Program-made: the position numbers and the translations under genes
Notes under the pieces: model-generated
Seen by the model: only the letters and a program-made list of their open reading frames with translations
Told to the model about the DNA's origin: nothing
Databases searched by the model: none
Shown here: positions 16,375-52,900 of the stretch, in pieces
Numbering within the stretch: the stretch's first letter is position 1
Layout: every line of letters starts with the position of its first letter
Assembly (NCBI GenBank): GCA_905160935.1
Contig: CAJHZI010000263.1
Span: forward strand, 336,501-400,500
Reading direction: 5' to 3'
Length of the DNA: 64,000 nucleotides
Source: Enchytraeus crypticus
Taxonomy: Eukaryota > Annelida > Clitellata > Enchytraeida > Enchytraeidae

Positions 16375-18173
16375 GTTAGTATAAAATTTATGTCTACACT
16401 GCATGCACATTCAGTAAACTTAAATGCGAAAGTAAATCGTTTCTAAAGCTCTTTGAAACAATATTAGCAACTGTATTTTGCTGAGAATTGGCTTATTGAA
16501 TCAGTTCCAAAGATTGGCTTAATAAATATTTCCCGAGAAAGTTAACCGATCTAGTTTAATGCTGTCGGCCGAAGTTAAAATTACAGAAATTTTCATTATC
16601 GCGCCGTGTCATAATCCTATTTTCTGGTCTAATGATTGGAATTATTAGCTAATCGATTAGCTAATAATTTTAGCTGAAAATGAAATTAAATATACTGTAA
16701 ACTCTTTACAATTGATGGCTCTGTTATGCAACCGCAGATACAGAGGAAGGCAACAGGAAACCACCTCAGAACAATACTTATATCTTACCTTTCATGGCAT
16801 CTTACGAAGGTATGCGCGAGTCAAAAAGAGTATAGATTGTATGGTAAGGTAACGTCAAGTTATTGTAGATGATCGACCCATTTATAAATGAATCTCGTGG
16901 AATCCTTGATTCCAGGACAAGGCGAGGGTGGTATAATCTCTACAGCATATCCACAGGACCGGTAAATGGATAGAGTACAATTCAGTTTAACGATTTGATA
17001 ATGGAAATAACTAATATATTTTTAGTGATGCTGATTGTTGAGTCATTCTTTGCAGTCTACTTTATATTTTTAATTTGTCTTTCAAGTAGACAGAACAGTG
17101 GATAGAGGTTACACATTAATGCTTATTAATCAAACGAAATGGAAAAGTCAACTTAGGTTCTCGGAATTAAACAAAACATTGTAATTATTACCTTTTATGG
17201 TCCAATGTTGATAAAGGGGCTAAATATCATCCTGACCACTTTTTGAGTAAGTAATTTGTTTCTATGCAGTAACACGCCGGATAGGTCACCCATATCAGAA
17301 CAGAACCCCGCCCAAGCGCAAGAAGCCGAGGACGTCGTTTTCCAGGCTGCAGATAATCGAACTAGAGAAGCGCTTCCACCGCCAGAAATACCTGGCGTCA
17401 GCCGAGAGGTCAGCCCTGGCCAAGGGCTTGAAGATGACCGATGCTCAAGTCAAGACCTGGTTCCAAAATAGACGTACGAAGTGGAGGTAGGTTGATTGAT
17501 TGATTTCTCATTGAGTGCTATAAATCGATGAACTTGATGTAGGTTGATTGATTGATTGATTTATTTCTAGTTGAGTGCTGTTAAGACTTGAATTTAATCG
17601 ATGCATTATAGCGTAACAACAAATATCAGTGAGGCAATCATTCTACAACGCGACTGATGAATGGTTGATGAATGGTTGATGAATGATTGATGAATGGTTG
17701 AGAATGGTTGATGAATGGTTAATGAATGGTTGATGAATGATTAATGAATGGTTGATGAATGGTTAATGAATGGTTGATGAATGGTTAATGAATGGTTGAT
17801 GAATGGTTGATGAATGGTTGATGAATGGTTAATGAATGGTTTATGAATGGTTGATGAATGGTTGATGAATGGTTGATGAATGGTTAATGAATAGTTGATG
17901 AATGGTTGATGAATGGTTGATGAATGGTTGATGAATGGTTGATGAATGATTAATGAATGGTTGATGAATGGTTGATGAATGGTTGATGAATGGTTGATGA
18001 ATGAATTATAAATGGTTGATGAGGCGAAGAGGCAAGCTCCTAACAGGTTCATGCTTTCTCTACAGAGCGATTGATTGATTAATTGATTGATTGATTGATT
18101 GATATGTGATAGACAGCTGAAGAGAGAGAGGCAAAGAGGTAGACAGCTAACAGGTTCATGCTGTCTCTACAGA

Positions 18174-18206
<33 letters not shown>

Positions 18207-18383
18207 AGGAGACAGACGGCTGAAGAGAGAGAGGCAGAGAGACAAGCAGCTAACAGATTCATGCTCTCTCTACAGAGTGAGGCGAGTAAGAATATCTACA
18301 ACACACCTGACCCTCTCTGTATGAACAATGCCTCTCTCTCTGCTCTTCAAAAATTACAGCCTTGGGCCGAGGAAGATGAATGA
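15321..18383 (+). CDS. Tlx: Tlx-family homeobox transcription factor
   Basis: Three exons join to a 481-residue protein: 15321-16374, 17270-17486 and 18209-18383 (stop TGA). The start is the first ATG after an in-frame TAA at 15255. Residues 105-111 (FGISQIL) are an eh1 Groucho-binding motif, as in TLX1/2/3. VPAHRPLGG and FPWM further on are TLX-specific. The homeodomain (about 368-427) is preceded by RRIGHPYQNRTPPK and has Thr at position 47 (VKTWFQNRRTKW), the TLX hallmark. The C-terminus has RQTAEEREAERQ and LQPW, as in vertebrate TLX. Phases agree (1, then 2), and the second intron splits homeodomain codon 57. Known family role: a nuclear DNA-binding repressor/activator in neuron and mesoderm specification. 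The acidic D/E-rich N-terminus and Ser-rich middle are longer than in vertebrates. The relative is identified by homeodomain; the exact Tlx1/2/3 paralogue cannot be assigned. Confidence 0.96.
16640..16669. promoter_or_regulatory. 30-bp perfect palindrome with paired homeodomain sites
   Basis: In Tlx intron 1, AATTATTAGCTAATC is followed by its exact reverse complement. The centre, TAATCGATTA, is a TAAT-N2-ATTA pair, the spacing bound by some homeodomain dimers, and further ATTA/TAAT cores lie in both arms. Function is inferred from sequence only. It could equally be a hairpin of mutational origin like others in this window. Confidence 0.4.
16735..16990. mobile_element. Unclassified dispersed repeat in Tlx intron 1
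   Basis: A block containing GAGGAAGGCAACAGGAAACC resembles, in reverse complement, GGTTTCCCATTACCTTCCTC at about 51665. It therefore belongs to a repeat family dispersed in the window. No coding capacity or class-defining termini are visible. Confidence 0.5.
17270..17486 (+). CDS. Tlx: Tlx exon 2 (homeodomain)
   Basis: The acceptor TTTCTATGCAG|T is at 17269. The exon encodes VTRRIGHPYQ through homeodomain residue 56, with RTSF, KRFHRQKYLASAER and KMTDAQVKTWFQNRRTK all visible. The donor is GGAG|GTAGGT, and the intron begins at once with GATT repeats. Confidence 0.97.
17655..18012. repeat. GAATGGTTGAT minisatellite, ~30 copies
   Basis: An 11-bp unit, GAATGGTTGAT (variants GGTTAAT and GATTGAT), fills about 350 bp of Tlx intron 2 and runs into the exon-3 partial copies at 18012. 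The reverse strand is open as an Asn/His/Gln-Pro-Phe repeat, which is composition only. Confidence 0.95.
18012..18172 (+). pseudogene. Two degenerate partial copies of Tlx exon 3
   Basis: 18015-18066 and 18107-18172 each match about the first 55 bp of exon 3, sharing GCTAACAGGTTCATGCT and CTCTACAGAG, and each is followed by GATT repeats. Copy 2 has lost 4 bp after AGACAG and is out of frame. Copy 1 lacks the first ~20 bp. Both end at the same point (CTACAGAG|CGATTG), so they look like successive tandem duplications with one breakpoint in the exon and the other in the microsatellite. Confidence 0.85.
18209..18383 (+). CDS. Tlx: Tlx exon 3
   Basis: The acceptor is GATTGATAG|G, inside a GATT microsatellite. 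The exon encodes the end of the homeodomain and the conserved tail RQTAEEREAERQ, DPLCMNNASL and LQPWAEEDE, then TGA. Two degenerate copies of its first ~55 bp lie just upstream. An AATAAA occurs near 18731. Confidence 0.95.
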
Positions 18384-49918: not shown

Positions 49919-49957
<39 letters not shown>

Positions 49958-52900
49958 TCACATGCACACACGCACACACTCACACTCACTCGCTGTAATC
50001 GTAATATACCCAAAATGCTGTTCGGACAGTTTCTGGTCATCAAAGATAATCTCAAGCACGTTCCTTTACGTTGCTGCAGTTTCACGACTTTAACAAAGCG
50101 TTCTAATATATGCTGTAGCACTCTAATTGTTGTTATGTTATGTTGTATGTTGTGTTCTACACTACAACAGCACTCTCTCCTTCCCTCTCGCATACATCAT
50201 CCACGACAACATTAACTACCAGCACACAAACCTTAATGCTGCCACGTCGTTTTTTCTCAGCGGTGATGTGAGATACTCGTCGTAACTCCTTGTTGATCTC
50301 CACCTCTCTCTCGTCTATCTCTCTCTTCCTCCTTCCTCCCCCCACTCCACCACCCCTGAACTGAGTAACACAGAAACAACAGGATATCATTCCCACATCA
50401 TCCTTGTATGAGGAAACGGACGTTGAACCTTTATTATTATTGTCCCCACTCCCCCACACCTGAACTGAGTAACACAACAGTTACAGGTTATTTTATCATA
50501 ATTTTGTCATATTAACGACAAAATTAAAAACGATGAAGTGCCTAGTAGGACTGACAATTGATAGATATCATAAGGATTAGATAGAATGGGTGAGGACTGA
50601 TTGAGATGTGGCAGTGAGGAGATTTACAGGAACAATGTTCTCTGGGTTTTAGACCAGCTGCTACCACATCTCACACTTTAAGAGGTCTAGCTGCAACAAC
50701 GGTTGTGGTCTTTTGTTTTAAACAACTCACATTGCTTAGAGCGGCGTTTTACAGAAATACCAATTCATTGATGATTGATTTTTTGATTATTATTATTGAT
50801 TAGTGTCATACAGTTGAAGGCAGGTTACCACATAATCTCTCATTGATTGATTGATTGATTTATTGATCAGTGTCATACAGATGAAGGTAGGTTACTACAT
50901 AATCTCTCACCTCTCCACAGAAGTAGGACCCCGCTGACTCACTGCTGGCATGGCGTGACCTAGAACTCTGCGACTGCGGCAAACAAGATGGCTGCATAAA
51001 TGTTCCCAAATCCTGCGGTCAATAGAAAGAATGTACAGTGAGATAGGATTATAATGTTTATTGAATGGACAGCAATGAAAACATTAGAGATTAGCTGCAT
51101 GTACACCGCATGAGCACCAACCAATGACACAGGCTTGAATTTAGTTTATGTCTTGGTTCTTACAGAATACGTCGATTGTTTACCATTAATTAACAATGGT
51201 TTTTATGGTATCATACTTTGTAACAACAGTCTAGATAATAACATAATAATAACAACAATTAGAGTGCTACAGTCATCAATGACAACATCGAGCACTATTG
51301 AGACAAAATCAAGCTAGCGAGCAAAAAAAGAGGGTCCAAAAACGGTGCAAATTCCAAAATCCAGAAATTCAGTCAAGGGAGTTAACATTAACGTAAAGGG
51401 AGTTAATTGATTATTAACTCCCAAAGTAAAGGGAGTTAACGTCTTCAATTACCTAGAAAGGTAATTGAAGACGTTAGTTACTTCACAAATATTCTCTGTC
51501 TACAGTATTTTACTAAATGGCATGACCAAGGTACTTATATCTATTCATATGCAGCCTTTCACGCTCCATAAAGAGCACACCATCGATTAAAGAATTAATC
51601 CATTCACAAATGGCTATGCCTTAAGGTAGCCCATAGCTCAGGAATAACATGGCTTCTGCGGTGGTTTCCCATTACCTTCCTCAGTTCTGGCTCAGTCGCC
51701 TCTTACGACACGTGCAGTTTACGGTTGGCCTATTCACAACACAGGAATCATAATTCATAGAACCGATAACTAACAACAAGTCACGTGACCTAACAATGAC
51801 AAGTCACTGTTAGGGACGTCTCAGACACAAATAAGTTTAGCTTTACACACCAGTAAACCTGAGGATGATAGGACCCCGCCGATGTTGCCTGAATCCGACG
51901 GTATCTCCACCAATTCTGCAATCAATCAATTCCCTAATAAACAATCCGGTCAGTAAATCAATCCGTAAATCAACATGAAGATCAATCAACAAACAGAAAA
52001 ATTCTTAATTGTAATAAGTAAAAGTACAATTAAAGCAGTCACAGCAGCAGAATTCACAACTCACGTGACCCATCTCCCGTTAGAATACAGCTGGGCGGAG
52101 AACTGTCGACCATTCTGATTGGTTGCTGAGCAGCCAATTGCAGCATCTTCTGGAATTCTGAGCCTCTATTGGTCGCAGAAGAGAGAAAATTTTCAGAGAG
52201 CAGAGAGACGTTGCTCTGAGGAGCCGATGCTGTCGTTAGTGGCTTGCTGAACGCTGCCTCATGAGTCAAGGCTGCCGTTAGTGGCTTGCTGAACGCTGCC
52301 TCATGAGTCAAGGCTGTCGTTAGTGGCTTGTTGAACGCTGCCTCGTGGAACTGCACCTGACGTCGCTGCAATATATCACGTTAAAATACGTTATAATAAG
52401 ATATTTTTAAAATACGTTAAAATACAATACATTACATTATATGCGTTCGAATACGATAAATTACAATATATTACATTAAAAAAGTTTAGAGTGAACTAGA
52501 ATACAACAGGATATAAAAGCTTGCATGAGAAGCAGGAGGCCATCGACTCAAATCTCATATGATTAGGCGTCACAGCATAATACTTACACTCTATAGCTTT
52601 TACATGAAACAGCACATACCATTGCAATGCAGTGTAGTGCAAAATATTACAGTATTGTGTGGTACACGTAGCGTAAAGATCTGTCATCTCTAAATTCATA
52701 GCAGCTGCAACCTAAGAGTAGATTCGCCACATTCTATCATATGTACCAGCCGAATACTGTATGGAAGAACAACTTGGACAGAAAGTAAATAAAATTAACA
52801 GAAAAAACAGCTGTAAAGGCAACAGTATTGATCAGTAGCTATTGGATAAGATGGTAACGCTGCCAACATGGCGGCAGCTCGTGAATTAGTTGTGTCAAAT

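Follow-up and report, generated by a model that had tools for sequence, protein, structure and literature searches.

Tandem duplications across exon edges of Tlx, a DRC10-like gene, Mondo, and a genome sample copy exon starts and their acceptors into introns

The window, a stretch of 64,000 nucleotides (bases 336501-400500 of its contig), carries the genes Tlx, DRC10-like, and Mondo, in which exon edges are repeatedly copied, splice site included, into the flanking introns. An earlier note on this DNA picked out seven such cases and attributed them to a genome-wide process that yields competing splice sites. The locus raises the question of how common such duplications are, whether they favor exon edges, and how one copy among several comes to be spliced. 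Because the introns of the window are heavily repeated and the cases were hand-picked by the note's author, the window alone cannot show that edges are special: local duplications cover 14 to 16% of it (two imperfect measures), and 41% of 481 points in the interior of its introns were duplicated, a figure obtained with no microsatellite filter and so not comparable with the genome sample described below. In that sample, many exon starts, including the splice signal, have been copied one to nine times into the preceding intron, and the gene models imply that splicing must settle on the final one among several near-identical acceptors. Our best explanation, to which we give a probability of about 0.62, is that these are mirages of the type described in lancelets, the products of frequent tandem duplication that is blind to gene structure and tolerated at acceptors.

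Duplication at acceptors, donors, and intron interiors

The genome examined was the window's own assembly (524 Mb, 802 contigs), the whole of which was searched for the kinesin, myosin, and chaperonin families. The loci taken were 24 of the 31 kinesin clusters with at least three matches, three myosin stretches, and seven chaperonin stretches (∼272 kb), and further kinesin and chaperonin exons were located by profiles made from the initial matches. Splice sites were set by reading frame and signal score, giving 121 introns in 34 loci (85 kinesin, 31 chaperonin, and 5 myosin introns; median length 745 bp in the first 70 sampled). These gene models are computational, and a small number, among them one with a 66-nt intron in locus L022, are doubtful. 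For the main test, a 30-nt segment centered on each point was aligned semi-globally, with gaps, to 2 kb on each side on the same strand; the maximum score was 60, a score of 28 was taken as positive, and the reversed target served as the null. Interior points were excluded where microsatellite bases made up more than 15 of the 30, and no edge exceeded 15. Earlier duplication tests, based on blastn self-matches, were superseded. The blastn program probably discards matches close to the main diagonal, and periods below 57 were absent from the blastn-based set; because short units were missed in this way, the test was replaced, and the conclusions rest on the 30-nt semi-global test with the reversed-target null.

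A same-strand copy within 2 kb was found for 33 of the 121 acceptors (27.3%), 12 of the 121 donors (9.9%), and 690 of 4290 interior points (16.1%), whereas the reversed-sequence null gave 0 at edges and 0.2% inside introns. Deep intron points were duplicated at a rate of 11.3% (299/2640). At least one edge was duplicated in 44 of the 121 introns and in 22 of the 34 loci, and duplicated acceptors were present in 17 of the 34. The wide occurrence of edge-spanning duplication is therefore firm, and the earlier note was right to suspect a genome-wide process. That the pattern might be an assembly or haplotype artefact is suggested by its being seen in a single assembly, yet the copies differ from one another (best pairs 73 to 96% identical), the 802-contig assembly has contigs of up to 4.8 Mb, and the same pattern recurs across those 22 loci. 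Since the copies have diverged, we give an artefact almost no credence.

The proposal that edges as such exceed random intron points did not hold. With acceptors and donors pooled, 45 of 242 edges (18.6%) were duplicated versus the 16.1% at interior points (p = 0.32; locus-bootstrap difference, -0.027 to 0.073). The two kinds of edge nevertheless differed from each other: in the pooled sample the acceptor rate exceeded the donor rate by 0.171 (0.028 to 0.314) and the deep-interior rate by 0.155 (95% interval, 0.05 to 0.268), and the donor rate minus the deep rate was -0.016. An intermediate ungapped 24-nt test on 106 introns had given 23/106 acceptors, 10/106 donors, and 11.8% of interior points. 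By family, the duplicated acceptors, donors, and deep interior points were 15/31, 0/31, and 52/734 in chaperonins (7 loci) and 2/5, 0/5, and 8/94 in myosins.

Several results weigh against our explanation. In kinesins alone (24 loci) the rates were 16/85 for acceptors (18.8%), 12/85 for donors (14.1%), and 239/1812 for the deep interior (13.2%), differences that are not significant (acceptor minus deep, -0.029 to 0.139; acceptor minus donor, -0.083 to 0.168). In one chaperonin locus, L034, duplication affects 7 of the 8 modeled acceptors and no donor. The first test of all, with gapped BLAST and with offsets below ∼50 bp lost, placed edges below the interior (26/212 versus 37.7 expected). Finally, in the youngest class of duplications (score of at least 52) the counts were 11/121 acceptors and 3/121 donors, with 5.6% of deep points, an excess that could be mutational. 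Given the split between kinesins and chaperonins, the asymmetry between acceptors and donors, clear in the pooled sample, may be limited to some genes. L034 is an extreme case.

The youngest class bears on an alternative in which tandem duplications arise more often at the acceptor region than elsewhere, making it a mutational hot spot; DNA breaks tied to transcription or splicing, or template switching at the branch-point/pyrimidine stretch, could be the cause. The acceptor excess over the deep interior, with donors at the deep level, is what such a hot spot would give, as is the 11:3 preponderance of acceptors over donors among the youngest copies. Set against this are the lack of a significant acceptor excess in kinesins alone, the divergence of copies, which is not lower at acceptors (median score 47 versus 50 at intronic duplications, so the acceptor ones are not younger), and the distribution of duplications upstream. 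Points 40-80 nt upstream of duplicated acceptors were covered in 51 of 58 cases (88%), fading over 300 nt, whereas upstream of unduplicated acceptors they were covered in 21 of 134 (16%), which is background; in introns with unduplicated acceptors, points 40 to 200 nt upstream stood at 15.6 to 17.8%. Coverage is thus raised only where the acceptor itself is duplicated, and the local excess is made up of acceptor-crossing arrays. Separating the two sets of introns in this way ruled out a general zone of high duplication upstream of acceptors. Into the exon, coverage dropped to 2.8% in acceptor exons and 0% in donor exons at a distance of 50 to 60 nt (106 introns). We consider a hot spot unlikely; the youngest class is too small to decide between tolerance and a hot spot, and the present counts cannot separate mutation from selection.

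Decoy acceptors and GATT tracts

Upstream decoys accompanied 32 of the 33 duplicated acceptors, 1 to 9 each and 97 in total, and the AG was intact in 89 of the 97, so that the duplications do yield competing splice sites, as the earlier note had claimed. The nearest decoy lay 28 to 294 nt from the real acceptor, with the nearest duplicate copy mostly 28 to 150 bp away; among donor copies in the 106-intron set, 15 of 16 kept the GT. Splicing at a decoy is predicted to add a stop codon to the mRNA for 87 of the 89 decoys with an AG, from which it follows that the reading frame demands the last copy. The best decoy equaled or outscored the real acceptor in 22 of 32 cases (medians, 6.3 and 6.0), although these scores come from a generic acceptor matrix and taking the best of several favors decoys, and no scored local signal feature marks the last, real copy.

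The intact AGs and the 87 truncating decoys could also mean that decoys are retained for use, regulated splicing at them producing stop-containing mRNA and so reducing gene output. Background intronic AGs, however, are equally truncating (1361/1383), and retention in the copies was 0.96 at the A and G versus 0.92 and 0.90 in flanking positions, in an identity profile whose values within 15 nt of the edge are too high, copies having been selected on that segment. The AG is kept slightly more often than the neighboring bases, too small a margin to indicate clearly that decoys are conserved for use. Lancelet mirages, moreover, are reported in PMC3087553 not to interfere with regular splicing. We regard decoys kept for use as very unlikely.

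Under our preferred explanation of tolerated lancelet-type mirages, frequent tandem duplication of short neighboring segments would generate copies regardless of gene structure, and some of the duplicated spans would reach across the 3' splice site into the first tens of coding bases. The extra copies would turn into intron sequence carrying complete, unused acceptors, and the original exon would remain whole because the last copy is never severed from the exon body. Acceptor duplications would build up for two reasons: they are nearly neutral, since splicing takes the last copy, probably by exon definition, and coding selection holds one copy and so keeps the duplication recognizable for longer. 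Donor-spanning duplications, in some genes, and those deep in exons, nearly everywhere, would be removed or never fixed. We infer in particular the use of the last copy in RNA, the near-neutrality at acceptors, and the selection at donors. A bolder version, which we put forward tentatively and at somewhat less than even odds, is that about one 3' splice site in four ends a series of intact acceptors and that the spliceosome routinely chooses among them by position (the last copy, joined to the whole exon) rather than by local 3' splice-site sequence; such tolerance would let duplications pile up more at acceptors than at donors, reaching most exons of some genes, and would supply ready parts for new introns like that of Mondo, described below. 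If the decoys are unused, many of the genes here set 2 to 10 near-identical acceptors against one another with position as the main difference, a natural experiment that directly tests 3' splice-site choice.

Acceptors also differ from the rest of the intron in their simple repeats. The 121 introns hold 116 (GATT)n tracts in the sense orientation (28 introns, 16 loci) versus 19 antisense tracts (6 introns, 6 loci). Within 50 nt of an acceptor there were 36 sense and 0 antisense tracts, and within 50 nt of a donor 0 sense tracts; antisense tracts lean toward the donor, 8 of the 19 being no more than 150 nt from it. Of 95 tracts in the 106-intron set, 31 lay within 50 nt of the acceptor, versus a uniform expectation of 7. 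At least two TTGAT motifs were present in the last 40 nt before 30 of the 121 acceptors (19 of the 34 loci), and in 4.6% (sense) and 0.8% (antisense) of interior 40-mers of the 106-intron set. Tracts of this kind at acceptors occur in introns of L009-L042 and at the window acceptors 18209, 37821, 47779, and 48503. The branch-point consensus is yUnAy, which TTGAT fits, and the GATT tracts may act as branch-point arrays. A literature search of open-licence papers found no report of polarized GATT tracts at acceptors.

The earlier note had proposed that slippage or template switching anchored in ATTG/TTG microsatellites produced the duplications. A GATT or TTG tract does lie in or beside the unit in four window cases, but at least two TTGAT motifs were present in only 6 of 20 acceptor-spanning copies (106-intron set), and acceptors were duplicated in 9 of 36 introns with a TTGAT-rich 3' end versus 24 of 85 without (p = 0.82). 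Such anchoring is not general, and we give it very little weight as a mechanism.

Duplicated edges in Tlx, the DRC10-like gene, and Mondo

All seven cases reported in the window proved to be real local tandem duplications that cross splice sites; six are strong, and the one at 50457-50475 is short and lies on a provisional exon. Of the 25 edges of the three genes put to the scored test, 8 gave a positive score: 7 of the 14 acceptors and 1 of the 11 donors. All positive edges except one are acceptors. The Tlx exon 2 donor, with a score of 27 (null 7), fell just below the positive line. Five of the 25 edges belong to provisional or alternative models (the DRC mid1 donor, two DRC cc1 acceptors, the DRC cc2 acceptor, and the Mondo bHLH acceptor), and single splits in the exon models may be one base off. 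The note's description of the units as carrying intronic microsatellite sequence does not apply to all of them: the 29-bp DRC10 and 62-bp Mondo arrays lack one, as judged by Tandem Repeats Finder (TRF) and by eye.

Tlx was identified by protein search and by its Pfam homeodomain; its best protein matches, after one odd moth record, were from Capitella, Urechis, the nemertean Tubulanus, and Owenia. That public moth protein record has about five tandem copies of a homeodomain stretch, which may be a gene-prediction or assembly artefact or a real array. The array that spans the Tlx exon 3 acceptor (18021..18277, plus strand; unit 103 bp, 2.5 copies) was defined by TRF, translation, and the scored test. 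Its real acceptor precedes 18209 (GATTGATAG/GAGACAGACGG, the slash marking the splice site), a decoy acceptor lies 103 bp upstream, and the score was 40 (reversed 11) with the copy at -103.

The DRC10-like gene is tentatively so named, on an IQ motif detected by Pfam. TRF and the scored test located the arrays of this gene and all those of Mondo described next except the short bHLH one. At DRC10-like exon 2, an array of ∼7 copies of a ∼29-bp unit (29438..29632, plus strand) leads to the real acceptor TTGTTGCAG/GCAGCAGATACG at 29621 (score 37, reversed 2; copies at -58, -139, and -168). Three copies score at least 28 and the remaining ones are shorter or diverged; in the upstream copies TAG replaces CAG before GCAGCAGATAC or close variants. 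The IQ-motif exon has a duplicated start, a TTG-rich array, and the real acceptor within 38070..38369 (plus strand). A copy of ∼49 nt of the exon start, with TTACAG intact, occupies 38094-38142, and the TTG-rich array (42-bp unit), which holds TTACAGAGC, sits before the real acceptor at 38321 (score 55, reversed 9; copies at -30, -114, and -227). At 29882-30176 the DRC10-like frame crosses a GAT-rich repeat that encodes a long Asp-rich stretch of uncertain coding status.

Mondo was identified by a BLASTP match of 131 bits to a MondoA C-terminus; the protein database returned no Mondo homologs at E 0.001 or at E 10, the PDB nothing relevant, and Pfam no bHLH in a 34-aa piece. On the minus strand, an array of 2.4 copies (by TRF) of a ∼95-bp unit (47783..48002) lies at the acceptor of the NWKFW exon, GATTGATCAG/TGCATGCC at 47779 (score 49, reversed 2; copies at -77 and -172). 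The zipper exon acceptor, GTTCAG/CTGCAGACC at 48503, has one tandem copy with a unit of 114 bp (48451..48675, minus strand; score 50, reversed 4; copy at -114). The provisional bHLH exon acceptor, GTTACTCAG/TTCAGGGGTGG at 50360, has one short copy 104 bp upstream (50357..50475, minus strand), identified by the scored test (score 40, reversed 4; copy at -104), and is the weakest of the seven.

The C-terminal part of Mondo holds a minisatellite of 16 units, mostly 62 bp (55 to 65), between two coding pieces (44547..45490, minus strand; TRF, unit reading, and scored test). Each unit has a donor-like CAA/GTGATG and an acceptor-like CATCACAG/; the upstream exon passes directly into the first unit, and the last unit leads into the final exon. 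The donor at 45481 scored 44 (reversed 3) with 13 copies of at least 28, and the last acceptor, at 44582, scored 60 (reversed 20) with 11 such copies. Both splice sites, as modeled, lie within copies of one duplicated segment, with the frame kept. Joining CAA/GTGATG to CACAG/CTAGTG leaves an open frame through SILTEPSALADQ-LVTDQMKRESAKR, the coding pieces around the array, and is one of seven candidate GT/AG pairings between the first and last units that keep the frame. In MondoA the sequence continues as SILTDPGRIPEQATR, a continuity that would imply a continuous exon split by tandem duplication, and we regard the array as a candidate intron gain. The layout, an intron within an array, was found in 0 of the 121 sampled introns, the lone score above 30 being an overlapping-window artefact at the doubtful 66-nt intron.

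A genome search with the Mondo array returned this place alone, and a dispersed satellite was not supported given the single match. Neither the Tlx nor the Mondo array had a second allele among the matches of genome searches of this one assembly; two partial matches to the Tlx array, in L002 and L003, agree in the GATT repeats only. Two chaperonin-like places, C259:219813-222410 and C400:245545-248142, have identical scores and spacing and are either haplotype copies or a recent duplication; such paired places could test array length between alleles. Elsewhere in the window, 52850-57368 (plus strand) holds two long overlapping frames of 521 and 998 aa, the second endonuclease- and reverse transcriptase-like by eye, as in a retrotransposon lacking long terminal repeats (non-LTR). 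A short dispersed element resembling, by eye, a short interspersed nuclear element lies in both orientations at 23948-25180, 28108-28374, 35810-35950, and 47344-47487 and can be read in several frames as GASGDVGK..ARPSLTSLSSEETDVN. An array of ∼1 kb with a 22-bp AT-rich unit (TAATATAATAATAAAATAATAG) occupies 41021-42071, between the DRC10-like and Mondo genes.

Comparison with known systems

Tandem alternative splice sites, NAGNAG and longer, likewise place several acceptors in a row before one exon. They differ from the present arrays, in which the nearest spacing is 28 to 294 nt and coding sequence is copied too, not a few bases. For such sites TassDB is cited in PMC2891723.

Intron gain by tandem duplication is treated in PMC4974935, which covers the Rogers model, potato RdRp, ATP2A1, and fission-yeast 24-bp repeats. 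The candidate Mondo intron resembles these in lying inside an array whose end units belong one to each exon and carry a possible donor and acceptor. It differs in that the unit has a 33-bp part absent from the last exon and in that the case is known from sequence alone.

The closest likeness is to the mirages of lancelets. PMC3087553 and PMC3902484 describe minisatellite-like tandem repeats over intron-exon boundaries in Adh3, TnC, the globins BflGb6 and BflGb9, and PGBD5, with units of tens to ∼160 bp, extra intronic copies, many of them with AG or GT, and an intact real exon, and link them to intron gain. In the window cases and in the genome sample alike, the repeat unit spans the intron end, the splice site, and the exon edge, the extra copies are intronic, splice signals are kept, and the exon is whole. 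The named cases are cephalochordate, which is not a defining feature, whereas the lineage here, judged from the Tlx protein alone, is probably that of an annelid or a close spiralian; for lancelets there is RNA and allele-length evidence, whereas the present duplications are known from the sequence of one assembly; and a many-gene rate, the intactness of decoys, and an uneven bias toward acceptors have been measured here. A literature search of open-licence papers found no genome-wide rate of boundary-spanning duplications, no many-gene figure for decoy intactness, and nothing on annelid tandem repeats or minisatellites in introns. We conclude that the duplications are of the same kind as lancelet mirages, probably in another lineage. 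Edge-spanning duplication, earlier described gene by gene in lancelets, touches about one-third of the introns sampled here, probably in a different group of animals, and is a measured source for intron gain and for errors of gene annotation.

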